Below are positions 28,061 to 50,289 of a DNA stretch of 64,000 nucleotides, one piece after another. The stretch comes from Zygnema cylindricum (Eukaryota; Streptophyta; Zygnematophyceae; Zygnematales; Zygnemataceae). How positions within the stretch are numbered: the first letter of the stretch is position 1; each line of letters begins with the position of its first letter. A model generated the notes under the pieces. That model ran no database searches, had not been told where the DNA came from, and worked only from the letters and a program-made list of their open reading frames with translations. Both the position numbers and the translations under genes were made by a program. The DNA is taken from assembly GCA_037447655.1 (NCBI GenBank), contig JBBHKE010002026.1, positions 62,001-126,000 on the forward strand, in the 5' to 3' direction.

Positions 28061-28723
28061 ACACTTCGTGTCATCAGTTTTAGGGAAATTGACAACGTAT
28101 GTTTTCTCCCTTTCAATTTCCTTCACCGCTTCCTCTTCTTCCGTTGAAAGAGCAACACTTTTGATCAAAGGCCCGGTGAAGTGGAGCTCTTTTCACTTTC
28201 CATCTATTGCACTAATAACATGTTTCACACGCTTTTATATACATTGGACAAGGTCTGTATAAATGACCATTATCATAGCAATAGATATACCTATTATTAT
28301 AGTAATTGACACACCTCCTTTCAGACTGTTGAAAAGACTGATTTCCTTGAAATCGGGTATCTCTCTAAAATTGAGCATTGTAAGCTACAACAAGATTTCC
28401 AAAATTAAATTCTAGCTATTTTGCTTCTTCTTCAAGCACATACTCTATAGTTGTAGCAGATTCTAATCTTTCTTATCTATTTTTTTAGTTCATCATAGGC
28501 TCATTTATACTTAGTAGGAAGACCCCTCACTAGCACCATTGCTTGGTAATACTCAAGAAAAAAACCACCTGAGCATGCATTTTCTACTACTATAAGTCTA
28601 AATTTATTGCAATATTCTGCCATGCTTCCGCTTATATACTTCCGCTTATATACTTATATTCCCAGATCTGCCTAGCAGGTAAAATCTCATGCTGTGCATT
28701 TGCTCTAAAATATGTTTTTTTCA
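28061..28723 (-). pseudogene. Copia G gag remnant
   Basis: Heavily decayed. Readable pieces include a post-knuckle linker (STEEEEAVKEIEREKTYVV) and QIWEYKYISGSI near 28680-28640. The usual MEAEYC-like gag block can be sensed at 28420-28620 only with frame changes. Truncated at 28723 by the LTR array. The N-terminal gag, primer site and 5' LTR are absent. Confidence 0.55.
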
Positions 28724-30016
28724 TGTCGTGCATGTGACAAAAGAAATGATAAACATGCAACACAACCAGCTGAAAGATAAATGATAATGAAATAAGAGAG
28801 AAAGTCATGAACATCTCAGAGAACAAGTGAAAATGAATATGTACAAGCAGCAAGCAACAAATAAACATACCATAAGAAAAATAAAGGTAAGGAATGATAA
28901 CGGAATATTAAGCCAACGAATAGCCATTAGGCTCCTTGTTCAGTTTATATTCCTTACAGGAGTTCAATAAATAAAGATCTAACCTAAATATCACAACACA
29001 TAAACTGAAAATGTAGAAAACCATGGGCAAATCTGAGATAACCAGATTTAGCCACAAGCAAAACAAATATAGAAAGTCAACCCTAATCCACTATCACCCA
29101 GCAACCACACAAGCAAACCCAAAACGGTCCAATCACAATCTAGGGTTCACTAAGAGCTTGAGATAGAAAGCTGAGCAGCAACCCACTTGATATGAAGAGA
29201 GAAGAAGTGAAGGGAAACCGGTTAGGCCTCGGCGTGAGCCGCGTAGATTAAATTGCAAGGCAAATTACAAAGAAAGGTGAGAGCGAGCTAGGCAGCAGAA
29301 TGCTTAATGACCAAAAAAATAGTAACTAAACCTATTTTGACAATTTCACAAGAAAATAATAAAAGTTTAGGTTAAATCTTCCAAAAAGAGATTCCTGTGC
29401 TTTTGAAATTGTGAGCACAAAATTCACCTAAAATTTGCTAAGTTCAAAGTTTACAGCTGAGCGTCAACCTTACCATGAATACATGCGTTCTATGTAGTTG
29501 TTTGCTTTTAGTTTGGATCCTGGCCAATAGGCGACCAGAATCTTATGCCTTGAGTTACAAAATCTACAACCTAAGAATAAAAACCCTTCCTACGTTATGT
29601 GTGAATGCGTGAGACCTCCAAGGGTCCACCACTTAAAATTAGCCAATTGCGTCGCCGTGTGCAGACTGAATCTTCCTCTGTCTCCTTTATGGCCGTGGAT
29701 TCACATTCGTGTCAAAAGTGGTACATGTAAATTATGTCGTTTGACATTTCGCGTCACTAGTTGTACAAACGAAAACTCAAACTGGTTCGTTGAAATTTCG
29801 GTTGGCAAATTAAGTCCGTTTGCGAAATTCTGGTGACTGTCGACTTCACGTACGAAATCCAAATCGTCCGGAGGTTTCTCAACGTCTGACCGGAATTTGC
29901 ACGGCCCTGTCAACACCGAAACATACCCACGTTTAAATTAGTGTGGTGTCCTATTCGAAGGACCAATTCCATGTGCTCAAAAATAATTAATTACGCCGAC
30001 ATGATACGGCATGACA
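28724..30016 (-). repeat. LTR copy 1 of the array (A3+B3)
   Basis: Starts tgtcgtgcatgtgac and ends ggcatgaca, giving TGTC...GACA ends. Contains the attaagccaacg...gctccttg block (from ~28905) and a gagacctccaagggtcca block (~29610). The left flank is copia G gag. The left flanking bases are ttca (28720-28723); ttca also follows the array at 40904-40907, which could be a 4-bp target duplication or coincidence because the two flanks belong to different copia elements. Confidence 0.75.
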
Positions 30017-30018
30017 GC

Positions 30019-31329
30019 TGTCTTGCATGTGACAAAAGAAATGATAAACATGCAACACAACCAGCTAAAAGATAAATGATAATGAAATAAGCGAGAAAGT
30101 CATGAACATCTCAGAGAACAAGTGAAAATGAATATGTACAAGCAACAAGCAACAAATAAACATATCATAAGAAAAATAAAGGTAAGGTGGGAGAGGAAGC
30201 TAGGAGGCTCAGTTTATTATTAAGCCAACGGATAGCCACTAGGCTCCTTGGTCAGTATATATTCCTTACAGGAGTTCAATAAATAAAGATTTATCCTAAT
30301 ATCAAAACACATAAACTAAAAATGTAGCAAACTGCGAGCAAATCTGAGATAACCAGATTTAGTCACACACAAAACATATAAGGAAAGCCAACCCTAATCC
30401 AGTATCCCCTAGTAAACCACACAAGCAAACCCAAAACTGTCCAATCGCAATCCAAGGTTCAACAACAACCTGAGAAAGAAGGTTGAGCAGCTATCCACTT
30501 GATAGGACGAGAGAAAAAGTGAAGGGAAACCGGTTAGGCCTCAGCGTGAGCCGCGTAGATTAAATTGCAAGGCAGATTACAAAGAAAGGTGAGTGCGAAC
30601 TAGGCAGCAGAACGTTTAAATGGAAAGAAAAATAGCCACTAAAACTATCCTGACAATTTTACAAGAAAATATTAGAAATTTAGGTTAAATCTTCCAAAGA
30701 GAGAATTCCTGTGCAAATGAAGTTGTGAGCATATATTTCACCTAAAATTTGCTAAGTACAAATTCTACAGCTGAGCGTCAACCTTTACTATGATACATGC
30801 GTTCTATGTAGTTGTTTGCTCCTAGTTTGGATCCTGGCCAATAGGCGACCAGAATCGTATGCCTTGAGTTACAAAATCTAAAACTTAAGAAAAAAACCCT
30901 TCCTACGTTACGTGTGAATGCGTGAGACCTCCAAGGGTCCACGACTTAAAATTAACCAATTGCGTCGCCGTGTGCAGACTGAATCTTCCTCTGCCTCCTT
31001 TATGGCCGTGGATTCACATTCGTGTCAAAAGTGGTACATGTAAATTATGTCGTTTGACATTTCGCGTCACTAGTTGTACAAACGAAAACTCAAACTGGTT
31101 CGTTGAAATTTCGGTTGGCAAATTAAGTCCGTTTGCGAAATTCTGGTGACTGTCGACTTCACGTACGAAATCCAAATCGTCCGGAGGTTTCTCAACGTCT
31201 GACCGGAATTTGCACGGCCCTGTCAACACCGAAACATACCCACGTTTAAATTAGTGTGGTGTCCTATTCGAAGGACCAATTCCATGTGCTCAAAAATAAT
31301 TAATTACGCCGACATGATACGGCATGACA
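30019..31329 (-). repeat. LTR copy 2 of the array (A2+B2)
   Basis: Joined head-to-tail to copy 1 with only gc between, making the palindrome gacagctgtc at 30013-30022. Starts tgtcttgcatgtgac, ends ggcatgaca. The right-hand ~350 bp and the first ~190 bp are almost identical to the neighbouring copies, whereas its middle differs at many positions. Confidence 0.8.
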
Positions 31330-31331
31330 GC

Positions 31332-31526
31332 TGTCTTGCATGTGACAAAAGAAATGATAAACATGCAACACAACCAGCTAAAAGATAAATGATAATGAAA
31401 TAAGCGAGAAAGTCATGAACATCTCAGAGAACAAGTGAAAATGAATATGTACAAGCAACAAGCAACAAATAAACATATCATTAGAAAATTAAAGGTAAGG
31501 TGGGAGAGGAAGCTAGGAGGCTCAGT
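31332..31526 (-). repeat. Partial LTR, B1 segment
   Basis: Again separated from copy 2 by gc in the palindrome gacagctgtc (31326-31335). About 195 bp, nearly identical to 30019-30207, ending ggctcagtttat where copy 2 continues tattaagcc. The continuation of this LTR is found only at 39731, beyond the Ty3-type coding region. Confidence 0.75.
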
Positions 31527-31611
31527 TTATCCCCCCCCCAGCTCTTTAGCCTGCCGAAGAGCTAGCCTGCCGAAGAGCTGGCCAGCTGGCCAATACGACA
31601 GGTAACTCTCT

Positions 31612-31941
31612 GCACCCGTGGCAAAACTAATGACCGTCTGGAACCGCAGTTAACGGAGGAACCAAACACTCTATGCGAAATCCCTGGTTGCTATGGTGGC
31701 TATGGTCGCATAGAAGCATTGATGTTTCTCCGTATGCTTGGTTGCAAAGTGTGCATTTTGTGGCCCCAATGATAGGCATACGCATAGGGTCCATGTCTTG
31801 GGAGAGATCCGGTAAATAACATCGAGCACAGTTCTTCGAATGCTCCCGAAAGGTTCGCGTATCTGCTCCTTGAAGTCCGAGCATGCCATTCATGTCTACT
31901 TCGATAATTCGAAGAATATGAAGGGAAACATCTGTGTCCAA
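31612..31941 (-). pseudogene. Integrase C-terminal tail with PHD-like finger
   Basis: The frame 31941-31627 has KCTLCNQAYGETSMLLCDH, then SHHSNQGFRIECLVPPLTAV and PDGH. In-frame TAG follows and the same frame continues FCHGC (31626-31612). This matches the PHD finger order: CxxC, LLCD, GFHxxCL-PPL-VP-G, and final CxxC. The second Cys pair is disturbed by a small direct duplication (gctatggtggctatggtc near 31690-31707 on the plus strand). The final Trp before CxxC is replaced by H-stop. PHD fingers bind the histone H3 tail; on an integrase it may guide target choice, as the chromodomain does in chromoviruses. Function is inferred. Confidence 0.75.
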
Positions 31942-33041
31942 GATATCGAAGGATTAGCGCCGTAAGTAGACATAATCTGCAACTTGGTAAGGCTTTTGCT
32001 ACGGCCGGTAGCTGCCGCTGCGTGTCCTGGCAATGCGCAAAGTATCCAGATGTTGGGCGATCTGCAGGTTATCAAAGGCCATAGGCATCTCTCGGGCGAA
32101 AAGCAGCGCCTTGTTAGTGAGTTCTTCCAAAAAAACCTTGTCAGACAGTAAGATAAACGGAAAGCTTGCGGCTTTCTGGATATTCCTACCCAACAAGGGT
32201 TGACGCCCAAATAAGACATTGTATGGAAGGTAATTAGCTAGACTCGCCTCTACCGACATTCGATACCCCATGGCAATATAGCCAAGTGACTCGTCCCACA
32301 CTGTTATATGTTTCTCCAAACAATGCTTGCGTAATGCCCGCTTGAAGGTCTGAACTGCACGTTCCGCCAATCCATCAGTTTGTGGATGATCGCAGGTGGT
32401 TTGACGATGGTCTTTGAGAGCGTCATCTAGCATTTCTAGGAATTCTCCGCGGAATTCAGTCCGTTGATCTGTGAGGACTTCGGCTGGAGCGCCGTATCTT
32501 ATAAGGACATGTTCCTTAAAAGCAGCGGTGGTGAGCTTAGCAGTTTTTGTGGTAACGCTACTACTTCAACCCATTTGCTAAAATTTTCAATCATGATCAT
32601 TTTATATTGTTTCCCCCACCGAGATATCAGAAAAAGGCCAACCAAATCGCACGACCAGTGGTAAAATAACCCGTTGATGGGTAATGGTTGGAGGGTAGTA
32701 TGCTAGTTGCTAAAAGAGGTATGTAGACAATCACATATTGCACACTTGTGCAATACCGCTGCGACATCAAATTGCATCCCAGACCACCAATAGCGTGTCT
32801 GCAACAAGCTTAAGGTGCGCTTGGTCCCATAATGACCCAGCTCGGTGTGAATTTGTTCAATCAGCGAGAGGCGTTCAGTCGGGCGAGGCACGTGCCTGTG
32901 ACTACTATCCGCTAACAATCGAACTAGCGATCCAACTAACCAAAGATATTTTTTAGCTCTTTTCTTTACTTGTTCCTCCTCCTCGGATGTAGTCAAAATG
33001 TTTGTCAAGAGAGGAAAAGAATTAGTGCTCCGTCTCGCCAT
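31942..33041 (-). pseudogene. Ty3-type integrase, broken
   Basis: The zinc region at 33041-32703 reads IEQIHTELGHYGTKRTLSLL, then YWWSGM and CAICDCLH (H-H-C-C). The core after frameshifts includes EVLTDQRTEFRGEF near 32475-32430, and DHPQTDGLAERAVQTFKRAL at 32400-32330 with the third catalytic acid intact. The C-terminal portion FGRQPLLGRNIQKAA is typical of Ty3 pol. The first catalytic Asp region (32690-32480) is unreadable without several frame changes. It leads directly into the PHD-like tail. Confidence 0.87.
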
Positions 33042-33545
33042 GGATCTGGGGTAGAATGGGAGTCTGGCAGCGAAGCTAAAGAACGTGTGATATAAAACCC
33101 TACTGAGATAGAAGCTAAGTCGTCATCAAATTCCTGCAGGACTCCATTGTCTGTGGTCCATGGCAAAGGATTTTATGAAATGCCGTCTGCATTCAAGCTA
33201 AGTAATCCTAGACGGTGAATTATTTCCACATCATATTCTTGTAAAATTAATGCTTATCGTGTTAATATTCCTGATAGTTTATTGTCGGTTAGAAGGGTAA
33301 ACGATTTTTAGTAAAGGTAGTGACAAAAGTGTATAATAACCCAAACTGCTTCCAGACATTCTCCTTCATAACTATTGTAATTTGCCTCCGCACGATTATT
33401 ACTCCTACTTGCGTAAGCGACCACGTATTCTTCTTCTGTTAGTTCACGCTAAGTTAAGATGGTCGCAATAACAAGTTAAGATGGTCGCAATGACAGGCTT
33501 TCCAAAGTCTGTTTGTAGGCATAAAGGTAATTTGTGATTATGAGG
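33042..33545 (-). pseudogene. RNase H region, decayed beyond clear reading
   Basis: Lies between RT and integrase, where Ty3 RNase H belongs and with suitable length. Only scattered short matches are seen and a small duplication (gttaagatggtcgcaat, twice near 33450-33492). Assignment rests on position. Confidence 0.4.
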
Positions 33546-34522
33546 TCATAGGATGGGAGCACTAGAGAGGGCATCTTTCAACTTCTGAAAAGCCAAAGCC
33601 AAAGTCTGATGAGGTCCCCATACGAAAAAGGGCTCTTTTTTGAGTAGATTTTTCAATGGTGAAGCGACAGTGCTGAAACTAGGGACAAATTTGCGATAAT
33701 AATTAGCTAATCCAAAGAAGGCTAGAAGACTCGTGAGATCAACGGGGGTTGACCGTGTGCTGATATCCTCGGTTTTTGCTTCAACTGGTGTGATTCCCTC
33801 GGAGGAAATGAAATGTCCAAGGTAAGGCACACCATCGGACCCGAAAGTACATTTAGTTGGATGACATTTTAATCCGACCTTTTTCAGTTCAGTTAGGACC
33901 CATTCGATATGAGCTCCGTGATCTTCAATTGTGGCAGAGGCGATTATCAAATCATGAATATAACATCGTGCAAACTTGCAAGCACCTAAAATTGAATGCG
34001 TTATTTTTTGAAAAATTTCGAGGCCGTTCTTAAGTCCAAAAGGCAAGACAGACAACTCCCAACGACTATCACTACCCCAAAAGGCGGTTTTATGCCTATC
34101 CTTCTCCTCTATTTCAATCTGGTTAAAGCCTTGTCGTAAATCTAAAATACTGAAATATTTAGCGCCTCCTACATGATCAAATATTTCTTCGGCCAATGGC
34201 ATTAGATGTCGATCTTGTATCATTGTAGCATTAAGTTCACGGTAATCGCCGCACATCTTGCGATTGGTAAAGTTTCCTTCGGCATCTTTTTTTTGGGCAT
34301 GACAGTGGTTGCTGCAAAAGTAGAATCCGACCGATAAATGAGGCCAGTTTGCTCTAATTTAGCGTAACGTTGGTCCACTAATTCCCATTCCGTTTCATAT
34401 AAGCAGTGTTTTGGCTTGAAAATGGGACGATCGTCTTCCACATATATAGACATTTTATAGGTGGTATGGCGACCAAGATCATTCATAGAGAAAGCAAAAG
34501 CGTCGATATTCCGGAGAATCAC
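33546..34522 (-). pseudogene. Ty3-type reverse transcriptase, active site altered
   Basis: The pre-RT block at 34522-34300 has ETEWELVDQRYAKLEQTGLI and STFAATTVMPKK. The frame 34256-33546 (236 codons) has CGDYRELNATMIQDRHLMPL, FSILDLRQGFNQIEIEEKDR, TAF and LPFGLKNGLEIFQ. The active site is CYIHDLIIA, where F/Y-x-D-D is expected, so one catalytic Asp is His. Then VGLKCHPTKCTFG, YLGHFISSEGI, and FFGLANYYRKFVPSFSTVASPL. A frameshift separates the two pieces near 34250. An upstream segment in the same frame (34852-34574) joins RT to the methyltransferase and carries an imperfect HMSTP repeat. Confidence 0.92.
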
Positions 34523-34961
34523 TTCGTTCAGTAGATCATGTTCAAATTGAGAGGGATTAGAGCCGAATTTCCATTAAGGAGATTTCGAACCTTTAATCGT
34601 CATTGATTCCATGGCTTGTGCAAAAGCTAGATGTTCATCCGCGATAAGTGACTGACCTAATGAGTAAACAACCGGTGTTTCTTGTAAGCAGTTTGTCCAA
34701 TGGTGCCAGCTGCGAGTAGGAAAGGCCGCAGTCCAGTGAGGAGGTGTTGACATATGACTAGAGGGAGCAGATGGTGTTGACATATGCCAAGAGAGAGCAT
34801 ATTGGGCAGCAGAATATGCCGGAATGGACCATGACATGTGGCTAGGGTTCAAGAAATCGTAGATTGTGACATCAGAGAAGGTTTTATAGAGGATGGGAAG
34901 AGCAAAAATTGAGAAGATTTCCTTCTAAGGGTGACAATGTGTTTAGAAAATGGTGGTGCAC

Positions 34962-34971
34962 CCCCCCCCTA
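34962..34971 (-). promoter_or_regulatory. Internal G-tract, possible central polypurine tract
   Basis: On the minus strand agctagggggggggtgcacc, just after the methyltransferase frame ends and before RT. A G9 tract in the near-identical word agctggggggggg closes the element at 31531-31540. In some retroelements a second internal polypurine tract primes plus-strand DNA. Function inferred from similarity only. Confidence 0.35.
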
Positions 34972-34997
34972 GCTGGTTGAGATGGATGGGTTTGTGC

Positions 34998-35993
34998 TTA
35001 ACGACCTGCTGCAAATCCGAGGCCTAAGACAAAGTAGAGGGATAGAGGGTCCATGACACGATCTAAAAAGATGCAGCGCTGTTGTTTTGTGAGATTATTG
35101 GCCGCCATAGTGTTGGGAAGGAAATGCATAAGGTGTTCCCGTTCTGTGGCTGTAGGTTCATCTAGGCCGCCTGTGTGAATATTTCTAAGCAGGCAGGGCC
35201 CATCACCAGAGAAAGCGTGAGAGTGTGGATAAGACACTAGAGTGGGGAGAACTTTGAGTGGTTCTCCTGAGACGTTAATGTTGTAATTCGATGGGTGATC
35301 AGGCTCTAGACAGGTTTAGACTTTGTGAAAAGGAAGAAGTGCAGTGTGAATATCTGTAAAAGGAAGTTTGACAGAAAGATTTCCTACTCTAAGGCGTCCA
35401 ATATCAATCAAGTTGGTCCATTTAGATCGAACTGGATGAGATAAGGACGCGTGACGAGCGGCATCAATGATAAGAGGAGGACCAATTAATGCTTCTATCC
35501 GCTTGTAATCAGCTAACACTGTAGGTCGAGGATCGTTATAAGTTGCCACGTTTTCCAGAATATATCCCAATGGGCGATCAAAAGATTGCAAAAAATACAT
35601 GATACGAAGTAATTCAAAGAATAATTTGGTGCAGGGATCAGCTAAGCCGAGACCTTTGCCTGCTCGTGACATTCCTTGACACTCCCAACCGGCAAAGAGA
35701 AGATCGATTGGTTCCACATCGAGAAGGTGTTGGTTTCCTATCAAACGAATATCTTGGAGTAATGCTTTATCCATGTGAGCATAGGCAGATTTAGGGAAAA
35801 TATGTGGATATTGTTCGTGTAAAATATTACAGTGATGTGTTTGGGTTTTCCGAGCTAAAGGGTCAGTGTCAACTGAGTAGTAGTGCTTGATTAGTAATCC
35901 GTTGCGAAGGCATGAGAGTAGAGAGGTACGTATGCCTGCGAACAGGTCTAAAATGATTAGACCATCTTGATGAGGTTTGACCTGTATTGGTTT
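34998..35993 (-). pseudogene. Cytosine-5 DNA methyltransferase domain inside pol
   Basis: One frame, continuous except for TAA at 35316-35318, follows directly after the TAG that ends protease. Motif I: LIILDLFAGIRTSLL (35957-35910). Motif II: YYSVDTDPLA. Motif IV: FAGWECQGMSRAGKGLG, with the catalytic Cys kept but Pro replaced by Glu before it. Motif VI: YILENVATYND. Motif VIII region: DAARHASLSHPVRSKWTNL. C-terminal motifs: LPTLVSYPHSHAFSGDGPC, then EPTATEREHLMHF and DRVMDPLSLYFVLGLG. Length (~330 residues) fits a compact catalytic domain of the DNMT3/DRM kind. It would transfer methyl groups from S-adenosylmethionine to cytosine. Related fusions are known in a few algal/dinoflagellate retroelements. 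This copy looks degenerate because of the stop and the altered PCQ. Confidence 0.88.
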
Positions 35994-36842
35994 CTAATTA
36001 ATGGGAAGAAAACCGGAAGGATCTACAGAAATAAGAGGCAGAGGTGGAACCCGCGATAAAGGAATCTGAAGTGTGTGTTTGTAGATGTGATCAAACTCGC
36101 GAGAATCAATAATAAAACCTGGATTATCGAAAATTTCAGGCAAAGAACGACTGTCAGGCAGAATTTCATCTGCGGAAAGAGAATGAAAAATTTCATATCC
36201 CACCGAATTTTTGAAAAAAACATAGACAGATTGGGCTGCGTGAGCCATAATGGGCATGGATTGACGTGCTAAAATTTGAAGGAGACAAATTTTCTTTTCT
36301 GGATAATTGGTAGGACGGTAGGAAAAAGTCTGATAGTACAAATCAACGCCGCCTCCTACTCTAAAAATCACATCTTGCCCCGCTAAACACTCGTAATCAC
36401 TACATTTGGTGACCAATGCGTGAGCACGAACTTCCGCAAAATCAGATTTTGTACCATTTTGAAACCTAAAACAGAGTGGATCCTTTGTAATGCCCAAAAC
36501 TGGTTCGGTTGTTCCCGTTGAGGTTAGTAAATGTGTTGAAGTGGACTGAAGTTTATCAGTTGTAAGACCTAGTTTCAGTGCAAAAGATGACCCCAAAATA
36601 ACTGGTTTTGCACTGGTGTCCATAAGTGGTAATGATGGTATGACACCATTGACTAAAAATGCACCCTTCCCATTATCTAGAAAACTGATGTGTGGGTCAA
36701 GTGAACTACGCTCGTCGGTAGAGATAGGCCTAAGAGCGTCAAGATTACGGTTCATTTGTAAAGCGTATAATGGTGCAAATGGGATGGATGTCAGCGTAGA
36801 TTTTAGGTTGGGTGAATCGGAAATCATAGTAGAAAAATGCAT
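35994..36842 (-). pseudogene. Retroviral-type aspartic protease with N-terminal extension
   Basis: 283-codon frame ending in TAG at 35996-35994. GKGAFLVNGVIPSLPLMDTSAKPVILGS contains the active-site D-T-S-A in the usual setting, then FALKLGL, as in Ty3/caulimovirus-type proteases. The C-terminal 150 residues (QDVIFRVGGGVDLYYQTFSY, PIMAHAAQSVYVFF) link to the methyltransferase and have no domain I recognise. The methyltransferase continues in the same frame after the TAG. A frameshift near 36745-36842 separates it from the gag knuckles. Confidence 0.85.
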
Positions 36843-38634
36843 AATCTTTCCTTAACCCTATGGTTGTCCTGAATGGAGCGGTCAAGAATAGTGAGTGCTT
36901 CCGCCGTGATGGTGGAAGCTGTTTCGGGTAAATTGGTTGCGGTTTTTTGGAAAATGATAATGGTAGACGTGTGCTAGACTGTTTACCCTCGCGATTGTGA
37001 TCAACTGTCCCCTTGTCAAACGTGGTTGCCCGCTTTTGAATGGTTGAATCTCGTAAAACTCGACCTGCTAGCGTGGGGAGGTGGACAACTGTACGAGCCA
37101 TACTAGTTAGGTGAGTCAACAGTTTCATTTGAGCCATAAGGATTGCAAACTGGTCTTTGATCATAGCGGCCATTTGAGTTTGCATTTCCTCTCTCTCTTT
37201 TTCTCTCCGAGACACTTTCGGTGGAGAGTTTTTTTCTGACTCTTTAATTAGTTGGACTACTTTTGCAGATCTAGCCGGTATGCCACCATTTCGAATGTGA
37301 TTTTGATATGAAAATTCAGGGTTTTTGATGTGACAACGATACACAAAGTGGCCAGTCTGTTTGCAGTGTGTACACGTCGTAGATTTATCCGGGCACATCC
37401 GAGCATCATGCTCGATCTTACCACATTGGAAACAAATCCGATTGGATGGTTGATTTGGTGAGGTTCCCATAGATGGGACCCTTGGTGGCCGATTATTTGG
37501 CCCCAAGTTACGAAGAATTGGTGAATTGAAAAAAGTTGGGTTCTTTTTGAGGGGCTTTTGGTTGATCGCAGGCCTCCCACCAACAATTTGGCATCTCGTA
37601 TTCTACAGCGTATTGAGTTGCCTGGTCGAACGTAAATCTGAGATAGTATGTTGGGGTAAGATGGCTTTGAATAAATTTCTTTGACTGGAAAGGAAACTGT
37701 CCAACAAACTTCTAGACAGCTTCGGCATCTGATATCAGATCAGGTAACACTTCTCGCAAGGTCTCCATGCGGGCTCGTAAAGCGGGAGCAGTTTCTCTTG
37801 GTTTACGCTCAAAATTCATTAATTTCTTAACTTGGTCAGGATTTTGCATGCGATACTACTCTTGCAACAAATTAAATATTATGGTGAGAGGGTCTCGTAA
37901 CGGAATAGTTATCCTGGGTCGTGCCGGGACGGCGGCTCGGGCTGCAATGGCATATTGGTGGGGAACCTCCGCCACATCCGGGTAAAGAACATTGCCAAGT
38001 GCATCTAAGCCCTCGAGAATTGCAGTTTGATAAGGAATTTCTGCTTGACCTATTGCCTCAAGCATACCAACAAACTGTGGAGAATATTCAGTCATCGCAA
38101 ATATGCCATCATACTTGCGCGAATATAAGGTAAGGGCGGACTTGCGAAGATAACGCTCAAAAAGGGAGAAAGCGACACGCATGTCAAATCTATCTTGATA
38201 ACGAAAAGCTATATCTCGCATTTCAGTGTCGAATAGCATTCGAAAATGAGATAAACTCATGGTATATTTCATTCCAGAAAAGCAGAATTGAAGTTTACCA
38301 TGAGTACCCTCCAATGTGGAGTCCATCAAAAGAGACGAGTTAGTCGAATTCAAATCCTGAATCGGTGCTAACGGAGACCAAAAAGAAAGAAAATCTGAAT
38401 CAGTTCCCTTTCATTATCTACCTCTTCCACAAGTAGCGTGGAAAGAATGGATGACAAAGATGAGACAGTGGTTAAACCTGAACGAGCAGAAGACGCTCTA
38501 GATTCGATTAAAGGACTTAACGTCAAAGGAACCGAATTTGATAAATTCGATTGATCAAAATTTGATGAACGGGGTGTTTCACCACTACGTGTAGATCCGT
38601 TTGAGTGGTCAAGATTATCCCAATCAGTGGGCAT
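36843..38634 (-). pseudogene. Ty3-type gag with two CCHC knuckles, broken
   Basis: The probable start is ATG at 38634 (MPTDWDNLDHSNGSTRSGET). A Ser-rich N-terminus runs to about 38400. The capsid-like part at 38353-37856 has FRMLFDTEMRDIAFRYQDRF and SLFERYLRKSALTLYSRK; it continues in another frame near 37850-37590 (KLMNFERKPRETAPALRARM). The nucleocapsid at 37506-37300 has CFQCGKIEHDARMC and CTHCKQTGHFVYRC, both perfect CX2CX4HX4C knuckles, then a coiled-coil-like KVSRREKEREEMQTQMAA. Frameshifts separate the parts. Gag forms the particle and binds RNA. Confidence 0.82.
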
Positions 38635-39730
38635 AAAAATGACTAAGATAATAAACAAATCGGTTAAAGGATACGCCCTATACGAGGTGTAACCAATGCT
38701 AAACCATACCACATACGTAGGCAACAATCTCAAACAGTCTGTAACAAGGCCACGATGGCCAGATCTAGTCAACAGGCCGCTTTTACCAAAACCTCTACCT
38801 TGCAAACGAGTGGGCAAGGCCAAAAGGCTAGATGTATAAAGGCAGAAACTTGCTAAACAAGCACCCAGAGGTAAAGATCTAAAGCTCCACAGGCAGAAAA
38901 TAGTTCTATCCAAGGCCACCAACGGCCAGATCTAACAATAAAACTGCACGCCAAACAAACAACAAGAAAAACACAAGGCCACTCACGGCAAGATGGCAAG
39001 CATGGAAAGCGTGGACAGTGCAAATGCTCAATACAATTAGGTCCTGGTGAACCCAATCCAATCACGTTCCCTCTAAACGATCAACAACTATCCTAACACG
39101 TGCTTGCACCCGCAAGGCATCATGAACTTACAAACCACTCTTAACGACTTGTGATTGCTAAGGGTGAACTGCGGTTGTTCGCTCCAACCGGAGTTTTGCA
39201 GAGCTCCCAAAAACAAATCAGCTCCACTATCTCCACTCCAAATTGTCGAGCAGACACCACAAATCAATTACTAACTTAGTTAGTAGCCTATTAGGGCACG
39301 CGTATCAGCACTATGCCACGATCTGCCCGACTATAAAGCAATGGTAATTTTATGTGATAATTCGTGCAACCCAATATATATACCTTAGGGGTGTTTTTTT
39401 ATATGTTTTTTATTTGTTTAAGTTTGCTAGGTGTTATGAGTGAGTTAATCCGGTAGGAAGAAAGAAGAGAAAACGATACCGGACAGTTCAGCAATCTCAG
39501 ATTCAACAACTCAAAAACAAACTAGACAACAAATGAAATGAAAATAAAGCATAGCAAAAATCTAAACATACAGATAAATTGACAAAAACTAGACAGAAAA
39601 ACCAATTGACACAAGGAATAAAGAAACTTTGAAAAACTGACAATTTCAAATTGCAAAAAATGGAGCAAAACTGAAAATGTCAAATTGCAGTAAATAGAAG
39701 AAAAGCTGACAATTTCAAGAGCACAGGAAT
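38635..39730 (-). other. 5' leader of the Ty3-type element
   Basis: About 1.1 kb without a credible gene. Open frames here (38922-38635 and 39065-38853 minus) have no domain. A primer-binding site was not identified. The last ~120 bp contain repeated tgacaatttcaaattgca words, and 39709-39730 is an inverted copy of 40217-40238 within the adjoining LTR. Confidence 0.45.
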
Positions 39731-40903
39731 ATTAAGCCAACGGATAGCCACTAGGCTCCTTGGTTAGTTTATATTACTTACAAGAGTTCAATAAATAAAG
39801 ATTTAACTCAATATCACAGCACACATACTGAAACTGTAGCAAACTGCGAGCAAATATGAGATAACCAGATTTAATCACACACAAAACATACAAGGAAAGC
39901 CAACCCTAATCCACTATCACGCAGTAAACCACACAAGCAAATCCAAAACTGTTCAATCACAATCCAAGGTTCAGCAACAGCCTGAGAAAGAAGACCCAGC
40001 AGCAATCCACTTTATAGGACGCGAGAAGAAGTGAAGGGAAACCGGTTACGCTTCGGCGTGAGCCGCGTAGATAAATTTGTAGGGCAGGTTTACACAGAAA
40101 GAAAGTAAGAGCTAAGCAGCAGAACGCTTAATGACCAGAAAAATAGTCACTAAAACTATCTTGACAATTTCACAAGAAAAATCCTCAAAGTTTAGGTCAA
40201 ATCTTCCAAAATGAGAATTCCTGTGCTCTTGAAATTGTGAGCCACCAAATTCTCCTAAAATTCGCTAAGTATGAAGTCTACAGTTGAGCGCCTAAGCTAC
40301 TACAAATACATGCGTTCTATATAGTTGCCTGCGCCTAATTTGGATTCTGTCCAATAGGCGACCAGAAACGTCTTCCTTACGTTACAAAATCTACAGCATA
40401 CGGATAAAAACCCTTCCAATGCTACATGTAAATGCGTGAGACCTCCAAGGGTCCACGACTTAAAATGGACCAATCACGTCGCCGTGCGCAGTTCAAATCG
40501 CAATCGTTTTTTCTTCTACATCATGTGGGGCCGTAGATGCGCGTTCGAATTTGCGCAAGTCTTGACATGTTTTCAGGTTGGCTCTTCAGTTTGCCAATCG
40601 CACATACGAAATTTAGACTTGTTCGCGTAAATTCCGGCGCTTAACGAATAGACGTACGGACTTCAAAATGTTCGCGGGTTTCACGTCGCCTGACGACTTC
40701 GCGTACGGAATCCAATCAGTCCGCGTGTTTCACGGCGTCAACAAAAATATGTACGGTTCTGTCGCCACCGAAACATATTAGAGTACAAATTAGTGTGGCG
40801 TTTTTTTATACGAACCGTTTACATGAGGATCAAATATATTGAAAAATGCAGTTAGAATGTGATTCAATATAATTAAAATGCGGCGACGCGATGCGGCATG
40901 ACA
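39731..40903 (-). repeat. LTR segment A1
   Basis: Starts attaagccaacggatagcc and ends gcggcatgaca at 40903. Aligns with 28907-30016 and 30213-31329 at visibly lower identity in its right half. The first ~190 bp found in copies 1 and 2 are missing here and found at 31332-31526. The right flank is copia H/N. Confidence 0.75.
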
Positions 40904-42740
40904 TTCATCGGGATAAGAGAGTTTGGTTACCTTGTTGTTAACTTGTTTCTCTTGTAGTCTTTTGCAGCTTCCCCTTCCACCCTCAAACTTTGATGCCGGA
41001 ATGGATGGCTCTTGTGGATTCTTTCAAACAGTTTTGACTTCTCCCCTATCCCTTGATTCTGGGTCTATTTCCACCACGTCTTCTACTTCGGTTTGAGTTG
41101 GCACTAGGGGTTCCACGGCTGAATCCTCCTCGGTCTGAATTGTACCTACAAGATCATCATCTTCTCGAAACCTGGATAGTTAGGAAGCTTAAAGTCATCA
41201 AAATATTTTGACTCAAATCTGATTTTGAGTGTCCTTGTATGTTTAAAGGGATCTATAGATTTCCCTTCATCCATGGCCACTAAATGCTATACTAGGATTA
41301 TATCTTCTCTCTTGAGATCATAGACTTTGTATCCTTTTACATCTTCATCATATCCTAGCAGATGTCGTGGTTTTCCTTTCTGATCCAACATCTAATTTGA
41401 CCGATCTGTGTCTAGATTGAACTCTTGACTAACGAAAACCTTTATGTGTGAAACATCTAGTTTTCGGTCGGTCCATCTCTCAAAAGGAGTTTGACTTTTT
41501 ACTGTCGAAGTAAGAACTCTATTCTTGAGATAATTAGCGTAGTTCATTGCTCTGCCGAGAATATCTTTTCTATCTTCTTATCCTACAACATACTCTTAGC
41601 ACTATCACTTAGTGTTCTATTTAAGCTCTCGGCTACACCATTCTGCTCAAGATTTTTAGGGATTGTCTTGATGTTGCAGTCCATCTTCTCTCAAAAAATC
41701 CTCAAACTGATTGGAGGTATGTTTTCCCCCATTGTCACTCCTTACTCTCTTATTAGAGGTTTCATGAAGTTTCTCACTCCACGCTTTACATTCGTTAAAA
41801 ACATGTGGAGCCTCTGATTTGTTTTTCAGAAAGTAAACTCTAGAATACAGTGACCAATCGTCAGTAATTGTCATTATAAACCTCTTACCTCTGGGTGCAG
41901 GCACTTTGGCCGGTCCCTAAAAATCAGTGTGTACCAAGTCTAAACCTTTTTCTCCTTTATAAATGGCTTCCTTTGGGAAATGTAACTTGTGCGCCTTACC
42001 TTGAGCACAACCACTATAGTAAATTAGGTTTTCACTTTCTCCAAATTGAATTCCTAACACTATTTCCATCTTTGTTATTTCTTTTAGCTTATCTAAATGC
42101 ACATGTCCAAGCCTCTTATGCCACAACATAATATCATGAACACCAGAATAGAAAATTTACTTCTTTTCATTGCTTAAAATCAGCCTAAACATCCGTTGGC
42201 TACCTTTTTTCAGTAAATTAATAAACTTTCTCAAAACTTGCAGTAAAGGTTCCCTTTTTAGTGCTAGTCTCAAAACCTTTATCATCTAACATAGACGTTT
42301 AGATAAGGTTTTTGTTTAACTTTGGAATAAGCAACACATTAGAGAATGCCACTATGGATGTCTTTCACTCCACTAAGACTTTTAGATCTACCGATCCCAC
42401 CATTGTAGTAGTGACTACCTCTCCCATCCTCATATTTTATCTCTACGATGGGGATCTTTCTCATCTTAGTGAACACGTGTATTTCCTTACACATGTGCAT
42501 GGAGGCACCCAAATCCACAATCTAACCTCCTTCACCTTTTAATCCTTCGAATGCACATTTCTGCTTTCGTGGAATTTCGACCTCGGTCTTTGTCTCCAAC
42601 TCGTCATCCAACAACAGCTCATCGTCTTTATCTTCCGATTCCTCTTCATGTACTTGCGTCACAAGAGCATTTTTCTTTCCTCTCAAAGATCCACCGATCT
42701 GCCCCCTCCTTTAACCGTAGTTTGGTTAGCTTAGAGCACT
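40904..42740 (-). pseudogene. Copia H/N integrase and protease, broken
   Basis: Part of the oldest main-family element in the right half of the window. The linker before RT is at 40904-41170. The integrase C-terminus (41200-41640) is decayed. The core at 41904-41656 has RFIMTITDDWSLYSRVYFLKN, then VRSDNGGKHTSNQFEDFLRE (second Asp present). The zinc region at 42129-41917 reads LWHKRLGHVHLDKL...CAQGKAHKL. Protease pieces lie at 42560-42240. RT and RNase H are absent because the element is cut at 40903 by the LTR array; what lies beyond the array is a different copia. Confidence 0.85.
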
Positions 42741-43242
42741 CAGCCATATAATGCCCTGGTTTCTTACACGAATGACACAACCCCTTGGGAGCCTTTAGTC
42801 CCGACTCATCAGACTGATTTTTTTGCCACCCCCCTCTGTAGTTTCTGACCTGTTTTCTAGATTCCTTCTTCCTCTAATCAGTCTATGCTATCAAGCCTTG
42901 CCCACTCTTTCCTTACTTTTAGATCTGTATTATATTCTCTCAAACAAGAGTCATCCCTACCACAGAATTCCAAATCCACCTTGATTCCTGCAAGTCATGT
43001 ACTCAGTTAACTATACTCTTGAACTCATCAGATAACTTCATGAGCAAGCAGTTAACCTTTTCTTTTTCAATTTCTAATTTTTTAACACTCTCTAGTTCTA
43101 TCAAAAGTGTTGCGAGCTCATTACAAAAGTCCAATATCTTCCACCCTTTGTATACATATGCATCTATTTTTTGATCAGCCAAATGTTGTTGTTGAATTTT
43201 ACCACTTTGGTACATCTCTATGAGAGCCACCCATATGTCAGA
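42741..43242 (-). pseudogene. Copia H/N gag, C-terminal half
   Basis: A relic of the CCHC knuckle lies near 42790-42750. The gag block IWVALIEMYQSGKIQQQHLA, DAYVYKGWKILDFCNELATL, VNCLLMKLSDEFKSIVN is at 43230-43003. At 43243 it is cut by the LTR of element I/M. The N-terminal half resumes at 58883, so the two are one gene split by a ~15.6-kb nested insertion. Confidence 0.85.
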
Positions 43243-44176
43243 TGTAACTCTGAGACCTCTATAGGTCCCCAGAGTAGGCCGCTCACACGAAGCCTTTAGG
43301 ATAAAACTGACCCCTTTGTGTTTCAGCAAGAATAGTTGTCACCCTGAAAAAAAAACACTCTGACCACCTTCACCCCAATAAAGGCAAGACACCTTTGAGT
43401 CGTTAGCAAAAAGAATCTTCGAATTTGCTCCCCTAAGAAGTAAGTTATGGGTGGTCAAAAATGACCTTTATATTTTCAAGCTCTCCTAGAGAGAGGTACC
43501 TCAATATCACTAAGTCTTGGTCTGCCTACTCATGACTACCTACTACTAAACCCTAAACCAATAAGAACACTATATAGTAAAAGAAGGTACAATAGGGGAT
43601 GTACTTATTGTACGTCTATTGTAGGACATAGTCTACAAGGTAACACCTCTCAAATTGGGAGCCATGGTTCCTCCTCCCATCTTCTAGGGTATCAAATAAT
43701 GCGGCGCCACGTGGCACCGCGTGACGCTATCTCCTAATGCCGCCAAAATCTCACTTCGAGTGGCGGCTATAATGGTGGCCGTCCGATCAAAACATATTTT
43801 ACACGGTTCAAAGTCGCGTACGTGTATGAATTGTTCGTCTTCGTTAGTTTGGTGTAAATTAATCATTTTGTTAATGTTTATATATTTTCCAAATCCGTCA
43901 CGTGTATCGTTTCGTTGGGCCTTAATGGTTATGGCGCCCGGCTATAGAATATTTAGAGGTCGCATGTACAAATCTGGACTTGGGCAACATTTTGGTAAAA
44001 TATCATCTACTTCAAAATTTGCCACTTTCTAAATATGGCGGTTGCAATGGCGTGCCTTTGATCCTCAATCTCTCTCTTTAAAGTATAACTAAAATAGAGA
44101 AGTGAAATATTAATTACATCTTTTAAACAATTTATTTTAGACCAAGAAAATACTAAAAGAACCATTAAATTCTACA
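43243..44176 (-). repeat. 3' LTR of copia I/M
   Basis: Starts tgtaactctgagacctc, ends attctaca. Matches the LTR at 57958-58882 in sequence and nearly in length (934 and 925 bp). The right side abuts the reversed polypurine tract ctctccttattttctag. The left side cuts gag of H/N. Confidence 0.88.
43915..43990 (+). other. tRNA-like module antisense within I/M 3' LTR
   Basis: Ccttaatggttatggcgcc (43920-43938, A-box-like) and tgtacaaatctgg (B-box-like) at tRNA-gene spacing. The partner LTR at 58671-58681 keeps the exact B-box ggttcaaatcc. Confidence 0.5.
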
Positions 44177-45805
44177 CTCTCCTTATTTTCTAGTCACTCT
44201 TTAATTTCAGACCACATTTCTCCCTACAAAGAATTAGCTTAGGGGAAGGCACAGGTTTGGTCATCATGCTTGCTACCATCTCGCTATCTAGTCTATACTC
44301 TAAACTGATTATTGTGTTTTCTACCTTCTCACTAACAAAGCTAAGTCTTATGTCCATGTGTTACGATTTAAAATGATGTTTAGGATTGGCAGCAACAGCA
44401 ATTGCTACTTGATTATCACAAAATATTTTTTGCACACAACTCTTAAGGTGACCAAGCTCACCAAGCAAAGACTTGACCCACATCAATTCATTTACGGCAG
44501 AGCAAGAGGCTATATACTCGGCCTCCATGGTGGACTGAGCAATAACCTTTTTTTGTTTGCTACTCCACCAACAAGCCCCATCACCCACATACAATACATA
44601 TCCAGAAGTACATCTCCTCATCGGAGCATCACCATAACCGGCATCACTCTAAGTAGTGATGTCAGTATTCCCTCTACCCAAATGCAACCATATATCGCTA
44701 GTTCCTATCAAATATCTAAGGACTCTCTTAGTTGCCTCCTAATCTTTGTTAGTGGGAGCATTTAGACTTATACTCATCACTCTTACAGCTGCATCCAAAT
44801 CCGGTCGGGTACAATTCATAAAATAGATTAGGATTCCCACTACTTGCCTCTAAAAAATAGTCTACATGAACTTCTGTTCTTCCGGACCTAATTTCTCGTT
44901 TAAGATTATGACTCCTTCTTCCACACTCCCCTCACTTCTTGTCTTCAACTCCATTAGAGTTGTACAACTATTAGCCTTATCCATCTGAAACTTTTCCAAC
45001 ATGTTCCCTATTTCTTCATTTTGAGTTATTCTTATAATCTTTCTTTCTCGGTCTCTTTCTACTTAAATTCCAAAAATATATCTTGCCTCCCCCATATCCT
45101 TCATCTCACATCTCCCTTTAAGATTTGTTTTCAGTTATTAATTTTGTCCATTGATTTACTTAAAACAAGCAAATCATCAACATAAATTGCAATAATATTA
45201 ATACCTTCCTCATCTTCAAAAACATAGATTTAGTAATCTGAGGTAATTCGGATTTATCCCAGACTGGTAAGAAACTCATCAAGCTTCTTATTCCACTGTC
45301 GGGCGCATGTTTCAAACCTTAAAGAGAATTATTCAGCCAGCATACCTTACTCTCCTCTCCTTGCTCCACAAATCCTTCGGGTTGTCGCATGAAGATCTCC
45401 TCTAAAAATTCTCCATGCAAAAAGGTTGTGTTGATGTCCATCTAGTGCACCTCCATGTCTTCCGCTGCTACCAAACTGAGAAGTATGCGGACGGAGGGAT
45501 ATCTGACGACCGAACAAAGGTTTCCTCGTAGTCGATTCGCTATTTCTATGGGAATCCTTTAGCCACTAACCGGGCCTTGTAGCGCTCAATGGTGTTATCT
45601 CGGTTCAGTTTTAGTTTGAACACCAACTTACAATCGATTGGTTTTCGGTTAGGTGGACAATACACCAACTCCCAAGTATCGGCTGCCATAATTGAGGTCA
45701 TCTCCTCATTGATGGTTGTCTTCCACTGGTTCCTCTCTAGACAATTCATCTCCTCTTCCTAAGTCTGAGGTTCATCCGGATGAGATAGTTTTGTTACCTT
45801 GTTAT
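44177..45805 (-). pseudogene. Copia I/M RNase H and reverse transcriptase, broken
   Basis: RNase H at 44650-44210: MRRCTSGYVLYVGDGACWWS, AQSTMEAEYIASCSAVNELMWVKSLLGEL, FCDNQVAIAVAANPKHHFKS (core acids kept). RT is decayed between 44700 and 45540, with YVDD-region relics near 45170. The N-terminal palm at 45749-45546 has NQWKTTINEEMTSIMAADTWELV and RYKARLVAKGFP. Many frameshifts and stops make it inactive. The frame is interrupted upstream at 45805 by an inserted LTR. Confidence 0.87.
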
Positions 45806-46647
45806 TGTTGTTTTTAGAAAGCTTTAGTCCTCTCTATGCCTCAGCTGTGAGGGAGAGAGAGCTATTCAGGACTTAAGTTTTTTTTGGTTGAGTTCGGTTC
45901 AGTACTTACCAAAATTAGTGTGACAGTGAAGTTGGGAGTTCACGGTTCATTCACACTTGGGACACGCGTCGTCACTTGAGAGAAATGCGTGAGTATGTCC
46001 TCCGTGGACGTACGAAAATTCGGCAAGACCACGGGAATTTGTGAAGTCAGTTCTACGGTGCCAAATCCTCTAATCGGATGGTTGACAGCCGCCGCCAACA
46101 AATATTGACGAGGCGTGACTAGATCTCTATCAATTTACGTTGTCTGAACTTCAGTGTAAATATTTGGTAGAACGAATTTTGTTTGTAGTGAATTAGTTGT
46201 TTAGTGTTGAGAATGTGGATTATGACATAACTTCAGTACACAGGTATACTCACAGTATTTGTTGTGTTAGAATGTTAGATGTACGGCTGGAATGCCTCCG
46301 TACTGCTTAGTGTAGTTTCGGTGTATAGAAATAGGACTTAGTGAATTTGATTCATTAGGAACAAATGATATGAAAACTGTACACTCAGTTTTATGTAATT
46401 TCTTTTCTGCATATCTCACAAATCTGTAAGCGGAATTCATTGATATTTTGTGTGTGTGTTTCATTTTATGATATATACACTGTCCCACTTTTTAAGGACC
46501 ATTGGAGCGTTTTTCTGAAAGTTATAGTCTGTCAAAGTTGTTGTTCAGCCATCAATATTTGTGGAAGCTTCCTCTTTTGATTTGTTATACGATGACTACT
46601 GCTGCATCTTCTTCAACTTCAGTGCCAGCAGTTGTCTCAAAAAAACA
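45806..46647 (+). mobile_element. Solo LTR of the second copia lineage
   Basis: Starts tgttgtttttagaaagc and ends tcaaaaaaaca within the I/M pol linker. Flanks gttat (45801-45805) and attat (46648-46652) are a near-perfect target duplication. Intact relatives read ...ccttgttattaacctg at the empty site. The near-terminal atgactactgctgcatcttc equals the gag start region that this lineage also keeps inside its LTR. Hairpin tacggctggaatgcctccgta at about 46271. Confidence 0.82.
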
Positions 46648-48717
46648 ATTATTAACCTGTTTTTCTTGCAACCTTTTGCTACATCTCCTTCCTCCCTCAA
46701 AATCTGTGGCAGGAATAGATGGTTCCCGTGGGTTTTTTCGAACAATCTCGGCTTCTCCCCTGTCTGTCGATTCCGAATCGATTTCCACCACGTCTTCCGC
46801 TTCAGGTAGAGATGTCACTAGAATTTACACGGCCAAGTCCTTCTCGGTCTGATTTTTACGTGTGAGAATGTCATCTCCTTTGAAACCAGGATAGTAAGGA
46901 AGCTCAAAGTCATCGGAATTTTCTGACTCAAATCTGATTTTTACTGACTTTGTATACTTGAAGGGATCCACAGACTTTCCTTCATCTATAACAACTAGAT
47001 ATTTTACTAAGATTATATCTTCCCTTTTTAGATCATAAACTCTGTATCCTTTTACATCCTCATCGTATCCTAATAAGTACCCGGATTTTCCTTTAAAATC
47101 AAGCTTCCAATTAGATCGATCAGTATCTAGACTGAACACTTGAATGTTAAAAGCCTGTAAGTGAGATATGCCTAGTTTTTGGTCGGTCCATCTCTCATCG
47201 GGTATTTGGCCATTTACAGCTGAAGTAAGAACTCTATTTTTGAGGTAATTAGCATATTTCATTGCTTCGACCCTAAACCTTTTTCCTATCTTCTTATCCG
47301 ACAACATACTTCTAGCATTGTCACTTAGTGCTCTATTTAATCTTTCAGCTACCCCATTGTGATCCGGGTTTTTTGGAACTCTCTTTTGGTGTTGGACTCC
47401 ATCATCCCTCAAAAAATCCTCAAACTCGTTAGAGGTATACTCTCCACCAGTGACACTCCTTACTCTCTTGAAAAGATTTCATGGAGTTTTTCACTCCTTG
47501 CTTTATATTGTCTAAAACATTCCTGAGCCTCTGAATTATATTTCAAGAAATACACCATGGAATACCGAGACCAATCATCAGTGATAGTCATCATAAATCT
47601 CTTTCCCCCGGGTAAAGGCACTTTGGCCGGTCCCCATATATCTGTGTGCACTAAATCTAGAATCTTTTCTCCATGATAGGTGGTTGTTTTTGGAAAGGGT
47701 AACCTGTGTGCTTTGCCTTGAGCACATCCACTACAGTCACTTAGATTCTCACTCTCACCAAACTGAATCCCTTCCACTACTCCCATCTTTTTCATCTCTC
47801 TTAACTTATCTAGATTCACATGCCCAAGCCTCTTATGCCACAAGATTATATCATGAACACCAACATAATAAATTTTCTTCTTTTCATTGCTTAAAATCAG
47901 CCCAAACATCCCTTGGCTACCTTTTTCAGCAATGAAATAGATTTCCTCCTCAAAACTAACAGTAAAGACTCTTTTCCTAGTGCTAGTATCAAAACCCTTA
48001 TCATCTAATACTGATGTAGAGATGAGGCTTTTGTTCAGCTCTAGAATAAACTACACATCGGAGAATGTAACTATGGATGTTTTTCATTCTACTAACACTT
48101 TTAGATCTAACGATCCTACAAGAGTAGTAGTGACTATTCTCCCATCCCCGTACTCTATCTCTACGGTGGGAATCTTTCTTATCTTAATGAACAAGTGTTT
48201 ATCCTTACACATGTGCATGGAGGCACTTGAATTGCCAATCCAACCTGTTTCACTTTTCAAATCACCGAAAACACATTTCTGCTTTCGTGGAATTTCGACC
48301 TCGTTCTTCGCCTCCAACTCCTCATCCAATAGGATCTCATCGTCCTCATCCTCAGATTCCACCTCATGTACATGTGTCACAAGGGCCTTTTTCTTTCCTC
48401 TCGGGTTTCCACCTATCTGCCCCTCCTTTAACCGCAGTTCTTTTAACTTAGTACACTCCGCCATATAGTGCCCTGGTTTCTTACAAAAGTGGCACAAACC
48501 TTTAGGAGACTTTGGTCCGATCTCGTCGGTCTGAATTTTTTGCCCCCCCCCTCTCCATAATTTCCGACGGGTTTCCTAGATTCATTGTTCCTTCAATTGG
48601 TCCCAGCTGCCAAGGCTTGCCCACTCTTTCCTCCCCTTGGATCTCAATCGTATTCTCCCGAACGAGAATCATCCCTACAACTGTATTCCATATCCACCTT
48701 GAGTCCGACAAGTCTTG
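46648..48717 (-). pseudogene. Copia I/M integrase, protease and gag C-terminus
   Basis: Integrase C-terminal half at 47412-46825: NPDHNGVAERLNRALSDNAR (catalytic Glu kept), LKNRVLTSAVNGQIPDERW, FKGKSGYLLGYDEDVKGYRV. Core and zinc region at 47909-47460: LWHKRLGHVNLDKLREMKKM, CSGCAQGKAHRLPFPK, DLVHTDIWGPAKV (first Asp), MMTITDDWSRYSMVYF. Protease at about 48310-47950: WIGNSSASMHMCKDKHLFIK (D-S-G is N-S-S). Knuckle CHFCKKPGHYMAEC at 48497-48456 is intact. Gag resumes to 48717, where the LTR inserted at 48718 cuts it; its N-terminal part is at 57297-57957. Confidence 0.9.
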
Positions 48718-48757
48718 TGTTGGTTTTAAAAGTTAGTTTTGTGCGTGTGTGATATTT

Positions 48758-49817: not shown

Positions 49818-50262
49818 CTACCCTTATTTTCTAGTCAATCTATTATTTTAGACCACACTTCTCCTTGCAGAAAACTAGCTTAACGGAAGGCACAAGTTTG
49901 GTCATCATATCTGCTACCATCTTGCTATCTGGTCGGTACTCTAAACTGATTTTTTTGTTTTCTTCCTTCTCTGTAACAAAGCTGAGTCTAATGTCCATGT
50001 GTTTGGCTCTAAAATGATGTTTAAGATTGGTAGAAATAGCGATTGCTGCCTTATTATCACAAAAAAAAATCTGCACACCACTATTAAGGTGACCAAGCTC
50101 ACCAAGCAAAGACTTGACCCACATCAATTCTTTTACAGCAGAGCAAGAGGCCATATACTCAGCCTCCATGGTGGACTGAGCAATAACCTTTTGCTGTTTG
50201 CTACTCCAACAGCAAGCCCCATCACCCACATATAATACATATCCAGAAGTACATCTCCTCAT
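49818..50262 (-). pseudogene. Copia K RNase H
   Basis: The frame 50262-49843 (139 codons) reads MRRCTSGYVLYVGDGACCWS, AQSTMEAEYMASCSAVKELM, FFCDNKAAIAISTNLKHHFRAKHMDIRL and C-terminus EYRPDSKMVADMMTKLVPS. All core blocks are present. Its N-terminus is joined to RT through a stop near 50290. It degrades template RNA in the particle. This is the best preserved RNase H in the window. Confidence 0.9.
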
Positions 50263-50289
50263 CGGAGCATCACCATAACTAGCATCACT

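Follow-up and report, generated by a model that had tools for sequence, protein, structure and literature searches.

A Ty3-type retrotransposon of Zygnema cylindricum with a DNMT3-type methyltransferase in pol, a PHD-bearing integrase tail and split direct repeats

The closest described systems to the element reported here are retrotransposons that carry a DNA methyltransferase (DNMT). KnitGypsy-Dnmt3 of Klebsormidium nitens, published in 2018, holds a DNMT3-type domain without rearrangement inside a Gypsy Pol, is under purifying selection and has DIRS-like repeats, according to the relevant passages of de Mendoza et al. (PMC5890265). The same passages describe the retrotransposon-borne enzymes SymbioDIRS-Dnmt3 and SymbioLINE-Dnmt of dinoflagellates, and passages of a 2025 survey place DNMT3 members in streptophyte and dinoflagellate retrotransposons (PMC12344493). 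Here we analyzed a 64,000-nucleotide stretch of Zygnema cylindricum DNA (the window; contig JBBHKE010002026.1, positions 62,001 to 126,000), in which a minus-strand insertion at 28724..40903 is almost certainly a Ty3-type retrotransposon whose pol carries a DNMT3-type methyltransferase between protease (PR) and reverse transcriptase (RT), with the tail of the integrase (IN) bearing a PHD finger. The window family shares with KnitGypsy-Dnmt3 all the features named above, by published description. An earlier, sequence-only reading of the window had remarked that retroelement methyltransferases were a known but rare class. DNMT3 in a Gypsy Pol together with the DIRS-like repeat order is thus already known; the PHD linkage, the integration model proposed below and a second pol order with a DNMT were not found in the open-access literature searched with a few terms, which is weak evidence of novelty.

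The sequence-only reading had claimed ordered methyltransferase motifs in one frame, with a protease before them and RT and integrase behind. The motifs were found on the minus strand at 35993-34998, and the frame before its internal stop matched PF00145 at E=1.9e-10 (41.1 bits, cut-off 22), so that these motifs are not chance; the part 3' of the stop gave no Pfam match by itself. The neighbouring domains were also as claimed. All on the minus strand, the coding order is gag with a CCHC zinc knuckle (37216..38637, frameshifted; PF00098 E=7e-4, just under the cut-off, and 42-69% to the gag of the open copy L009 in three pieces), aspartic protease (35997..36836, active-site-like MDTSA, MDTGA in L009), the DNMT3-type cytosine-5 methyltransferase (35001..35990, with one internal TAA), RT with its preceding spacer (33687..34918, frame broken; PF00078 E=5.4e-22, 64-77% to L009), an RNase H remainder with the DDE integrase, H2C2 and core (32101..33469; PF17921 E=4.7e-15, 61-83% to L009), and the integrase C-terminal tail with the PHD finger (31585..32100, finger from about 31773 down; 71% to the L009 tail, E=4e-81, finger piece 58%). 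RT and H2C2 are clear by Pfam; the protease is recognized by its 61% match to L009 over 284 residues, PF13650 alone being weak and below its cut-off (E=0.046). A TAG ends the protease frame directly upstream of the DNMT frame and the TAA breaks the latter after residue 225, L009 having no stop at either position. Furthermore, frames are broken in gag and in the RT-to-integrase part, and the tail holds internal stops. The Ty3-type retrotransposon is abundant, and its window copy is degraded and dead. The identity proposed in the sequence-only reading stood, while the PHD finger, the split repeats and the dead state had been overlooked.

The abundance of the family was evident in the assembly (352.8 Mb, 2689 contigs), where the 150 scored of 1384 DNMT candidates all reached E <=1.1e-94, the window match included. 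L009 is a single open frame of 2395 codons, in which Pfam found CCHC and protease (both under cut-off), DNA_methylase, RVT_1, RNase H, H2C2, rve and PHD. Twenty loci chosen for a stop-free DNMT match all had PR and DNMT in order, and the order PR-DNMT-RT was found in 17 of them and in the window, the other three being without an RT match. This choice of loci by stop-free DNMT parts is biased toward intact domains. In the converse test we took 20 strong RT copies from outside the DNMT list, and DNMT sequence lay in the expected 1.1 kb in 18 (in three as less than 75 residues); of the other two, one had its DNMT displaced by inserted DNA and one gave no clear call. Because the DNMT stands in the expected place in copies chosen by RT, it is part of pol, and the idea of a separate insertion into pol, which the sequence-only reading had named as its own possible refutation, is ruled out by domain order in both sets of 20. 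No DNMT-free sister element was seen among the 20 RT copies checked. The order PR-RT-RNase H-IN and the DDE integrase are those of Ty3/Gypsy elements.

The pol domains, DNMT included, are under purifying selection. In stop-free copies, pN/pS was 0.190 for the DNMT (53 pairs, 11 copies), 0.047 for RT (33 pairs, 9 copies), 0.072 for IN (26 pairs, 8 copies), 0.132 for the PHD tail (51 pairs, 11 copies) and 0.265 for PR (64 pairs, 12 copies), computed from pairs with pS >0.03 and with synonymous sites saturated near 0.8. This ratio was preferred over dN/dS because the latter loses pairs to saturation, which left 24 of 105 for the DNMT.

By sequence and predicted structure, the methyltransferase is closest to DNMT3 among the solved cytosine-5 methyltransferases, with motifs in I-to-X order. 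The PF00145 score rises to 48.8 in L009. A phmmer search with the window frame gave DNMT3A chains as best PDB matches (1e-8), a 27-row family profile gave DNMT3A as best at 2e-20, followed by a plant DRM-type enzyme (1.7e-9, partial) and HhaI (5e-8), and the predicted DNMT structure (pLDDT 92.7) reached VIA Z 29.3 with DNMT3A, 25.7 with 4dkj and 25.0 with HhaI. A bacterial or phage origin was rejected: it came out weaker than DNMT3 in both the profile and the structure comparison, and a quick tree separated 49 retroelement or unassigned rows from seven bacterial rows (support 95, midpoint root). Additionally, an NCBIfam scan returned the dcm superfamily as sole match, below cut-off, an Rfam scan no match and a scan of viral contigs no relative.

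The enzyme is predicted from its motifs to be catalytically active, which we consider likely. The motif IV cysteine is kept in the window (WECQ) and aligned with that of DNMT3A, and motif VI has its ENV; among the open copies, L009 and L011 for example keep motif I, the cysteine, ENV or ENI, the motif VIII arginine and motif X. A proline before the catalytic cysteine (PC) is the usual rule in cytosine-5 methyltransferases, and its replacement by glutamate in the window and most relatives speaks against activity. This change could mean that the normal reaction is lost in the WEC enzymes and that the fold is retained for binding nucleic acid without catalysis, or for methylating RNA. We regard such a conversion as improbable, as the other catalytic motifs are kept in L009 and L011, some relatives that bear PC belong to the same family, and the domain is under purifying selection.

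Related DNMTs occur in two pol orders. The PR-DNMT order was found in the window family, in P0122 and P0123, also in P0007, and in Mesostigma viride P0033, whose protease was read by eye. The order RT-RNase H-DNMT-integrase was given by Pfam in P0124, P0126 and P0134; in P0129 Pfam placed RT, RNase H and integrase and the family profile located the DNMT between them, and in P0047 RT and RNase H matches precede the DNMT. Dunaliella salina P0034 and Cymbomonas tetramitiformis P0038 seem by eye to have an RT-RNase H-DNMT-like order; with P0033 they are the named carriers of related DNMTs, and both resemble unrecognized retroelement Pols by eye. In the quick tree of 56 rows, PR-type rows fell in one group of 15 (SH-aLRT 92) that held no RH-type rows, with order labels set by eye and the PR-type label of P0003 given without evidence. 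The two orders may reflect one capture followed by a move, or two captures. As minor features, P0129 has a weak Tudor match behind its PHD, and P0135 and P0138 have a G-patch (PF01585).

The second addition to pol is the PHD finger. The integrase tail of L009 matched PF00628 at E=3.1e-10, and the finger stood in order in 16 of the 20 loci chosen for a stop-free DNMT, plus the window. In addition, 11 of 17 longer database relatives, found with the L009 DNMT region and unnamed, are also listed with PF00628 and so share the DNMT-PHD pair. The solved fingers closest by sequence include those of PHF12, BAZ2B, WSTF, KDM5, PHF21A and ATXR5, several of which bind histone H3 unmethylated at K4. The finger, by family resemblance a reader of such tails, would steer the integrase to chromatin of this kind, and we slightly favor a role in targeting. 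In animal DNMT3, an ADD reader is joined to the same catalytic domain, and because of this the pairing of writer and reader in the retrotransposon and in animals looks convergent.

Chromatin readers behind the integrase are known from other Ty3 elements. Chromoviruses carry one at the integrase C-terminus, namely a chromodomain (PMC2864245, PMC3350952), whereas the C-terminus of L009 is a PHD finger with no chromodomain. Ectocarpus Gypsy-10 has a histone-reader fold at the Pol C-terminus, a Tudor domain, with no DNMT named alongside it in the passages of PMC12477816. Orchid Ty3 elements also carry an extra modification enzyme, an m6A demethylase domain acting on RNA and set in an additional frame, and PHD is unmentioned in the text of PMC9289625. 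The term PHD likewise has no occurrence in the text of PMC5890265 on KnitGypsy-Dnmt3. Among the papers listed from the Gypsy, Ty3 and integrase literature, judged mostly by title and start of abstract, no such finger came up; a mosquito Gypsy paper names only the PHD of a host gene beside an insertion, and a search extended to green algae turned up no such finger either.

The ends of the element do not have identical direct long terminal repeats (LTRs), as the 5' end holds a repeat A only and the 3' end holds B-A-B; TG...CA ends with a short target duplication, typical of Ty3/Gypsy, are present. In the window the order is A-coding-B-A-B-A-B, with TGAA on both flanks (minus-strand letters, 40904-40907 and 28720-28723) and a 5' edge at the point where the alignment of an interrupted copia element ends. 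The 5' repeat A opens with TGTCATGCCG (39730..40903). At the other end, a polypurine-tract-like AAAGAGCTGGGGGGGGG (31531..31547) adjoins the first B (31332..31530), which is followed by the second A (30218..31329), with the palindrome GACAGCTGTC at the B/A junction (31326..31335, second copy 30013-30022). Then come a second B+A unit (28905..30217; B 30217-30019, A 30016-28905) and the terminal B (28724..28904), which ends in GACA and has its first 30 nt replaced by another stretch.

We inspected the end regions of 13 loci (the window, C1344, C1407 and ten more), and both A and both B were present in eight: the window, which differs by its extra B-A unit, C1344, C232, C2602, C449, C829, C1915 and C742. 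In C1344, the 931-bp 5' A recurs without a difference near the 3' end, between two 243-bp copies of B that are 99.6% identical. The element opens with TGTC, the start of A, and closes with GACA, where the final B ends, and an exact 4-bp duplication flanks these two points in seven of the eight complete copies, window included, the rate of matches at other offsets being 0.0047. GACAGCTGTC stands at the internal B/A junction of all eight and also in C1407 and C605, and in the same loci a run of at least nine G (G9-12) precedes the first B. The A/B joints vary between copies, even between C829 and the related C1915, by 0 to 3 Gs of the tract or a few lost bases. Two side observations concern the window ends. 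The likeness of its two 3' units (30218-31530 and 28905-30217) is nearly complete for the first 536 nt and falls to about 90% beyond, a pattern such as gene conversion or template switching might leave. At 28870-28904, the last A/B joint lacks the first 30 bases of B and has about 15 odd ones there instead, which begin like the coding leader.

This repeat layout points to integration from circular cDNA. In elements that use a DDE integrase, this form is commonly regarded as a dead end. In the model that we propose, the G tract before B and the A end before the coding leader would define a conventional cDNA repeat B+A, and reverse transcription would give the usual linear cDNA with B+A as terminal repeats. 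The ends would be joined into a circle, leaving a slightly variable A/B joint; the observed variation of these joints fits joints that are made anew by end joining at each insertion. The DDE integrase would then make a cut in each strand of the internal palindrome (GACA^GC^TGTC), giving CA-3' ends and, like ordinary 3' processing, 5' overhangs of 2 nt, and the opened circle would be inserted with a 4-bp duplication as A-coding-B-A-B, so that the chromosomal ends lie inside the cDNA repeat. Insertion from a circular cDNA cut inside the repeat is, in our judgment, the probable route. There is a partial precedent in the foamy-virus integrase, which cuts an LTR-LTR palindrome after CA on both strands and leaves a 2-nt 5' overhang, as described in passages of PMC1180852; that palindrome is the LTR-LTR junction, whereas in the window family it lies inside the repeat defined by reverse transcription. 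The passages of PMC5890265 on KnitGypsy-Dnmt3 contain no integration model, and a search of a few terms on split direct repeats in Gypsy elements found no paper.

The A-coding-B-A-B layout could instead have arisen after insertion, by recombination of neighbouring copies or by LTR tandems. Tandem LTR elements are common in plants, according to the abstract of PMC11899658, and the near-identity of the two window units over 536 nt followed by about 90% likeness is a mark of conversion. This origin appears quite improbable to us, since the same layout with exact duplications at A start and B end recurs in six loci besides the window, one of them with 100% identical A copies, and the A/B joints are variable. 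The layout is also that of DIRS elements, SymbioDIRS-Dnmt3 among them (passages of PMC5890265), which would fit a hidden tyrosine-recombinase element with secondary Ty3 parts. We give this reading hardly any weight: the pieces of L009 contain Integrase_H2C2 and rve, and the insertions have 4-bp duplications. A DIRS element was rejected as no tyrosine recombinase matched by Pfam in the five pieces of L009, the only copy scanned whole. In this regard, the window family with its DDE integrase differs from SymbioDIRS-Dnmt3 and SymbioLINE-Dnmt, which rely on a tyrosine recombinase and on LINE machinery, respectively (passages of PMC5890265).

Several observations weigh against the proposed explanation. 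The predicted A-coding-B product is not confirmed, the candidates C2577 and C783 having a single B at the 3' end and no duplication; they neither confirm a one-repeat product nor exclude a broken 3' end. The duplication of C449 matches in three of four bases, and among placeable loci besides the window, incomplete ones included, exact duplications were found in 6 of 10. C1848, C605 and C1407 are not clean: C605 has a partial second A, and C1407 ends in B-A-B with a shortened A and no 5' A found. In the window, the copia interrupted on the 5' side does not continue beyond 28720, and rearrangement or chance may therefore account for the TGAA match. Lastly, inspection by eye showed no tRNA-type TGG start after A, either at window position 39729 or at the equivalent point of seven other loci. 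The stretch behind A is often TATTCCTG-like, and reverse transcription may be primed in another way.

The pol polyprotein normally works in the particle, on its own cDNA. As the enzyme is part of this polyprotein, its likeliest substrate would be the cDNA of the element itself, inside the particle, or the fresh insertion, which would then arrive methylated; we hold the odds of this role to be about even. The same proposal was put forward for SymbioDIRS by de Mendoza et al., who also report that DNMTs of retrotransposons are capable of de novo CG methylation (passages of PMC5890265). The observed/expected CpG ratio of the window element is 0.86 and that of ten other element bodies 0.74-0.97, compared with 0.60 for the neighbouring copia DNA (the CpG-poorer stretch 40904-55500); as CpG in the elements is hardly depleted, there is no mutational trace of long-standing CG methylation. 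A transition/transversion ratio of 1.00 (28 pairs) is unreliable because unrelated flanks were probably aligned. Alternatively, the DNMT could be a device of self-restraint or act on host chromatin, methylating host DNA or sibling copies in trans and thereby either sparing the host some damage or interfering with its silencing. Many copies keep the domain, and passages of PMC5890265 discuss restraint and genome-wide effects. Action in trans nevertheless seems unlikely given that a pol polyprotein normally acts in the particle; the copia beside the element is CpG-poorer (0.60 vs 0.86), which does not tell which enzyme methylated it.

Taking element identity, the circle route and the DNMT and PHD roles as one explanation, we put its probability at roughly 0.6. 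A more far-reaching and rather doubtful version would be a writer and reader lineage with obligatory circular cDNA that the DDE integrase opens at the internal palindrome, in which PHD directs the circle to H3K4-unmethylated nucleosomes and DNMT3 pre-methylates it, so that copies are born silent; if true, the element would pre-empt host silencing and so outlive it. Elements that methylate DNA invert the usual view of methylation as host defence, and with a DNMT and a chromatin reader in one polyprotein, many copies and open frames, the purpose of transposon methylation becomes testable.

The surroundings of the insertion are rich in other retroelements. The copia element at 40904-43244 is cut exactly at the insertion start and another copia lies from 28720 downwards, which points either to rearrangement of the far flank or to a copia that had been broken beforehand. 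Several degraded copia elements occupy 40904-55225 and 60609-62383. In addition, the window begins with a GC-richer stretch that holds a second and distant Ty3-type integrase (28% to the IN of L009) on the plus strand, at 226-1155.
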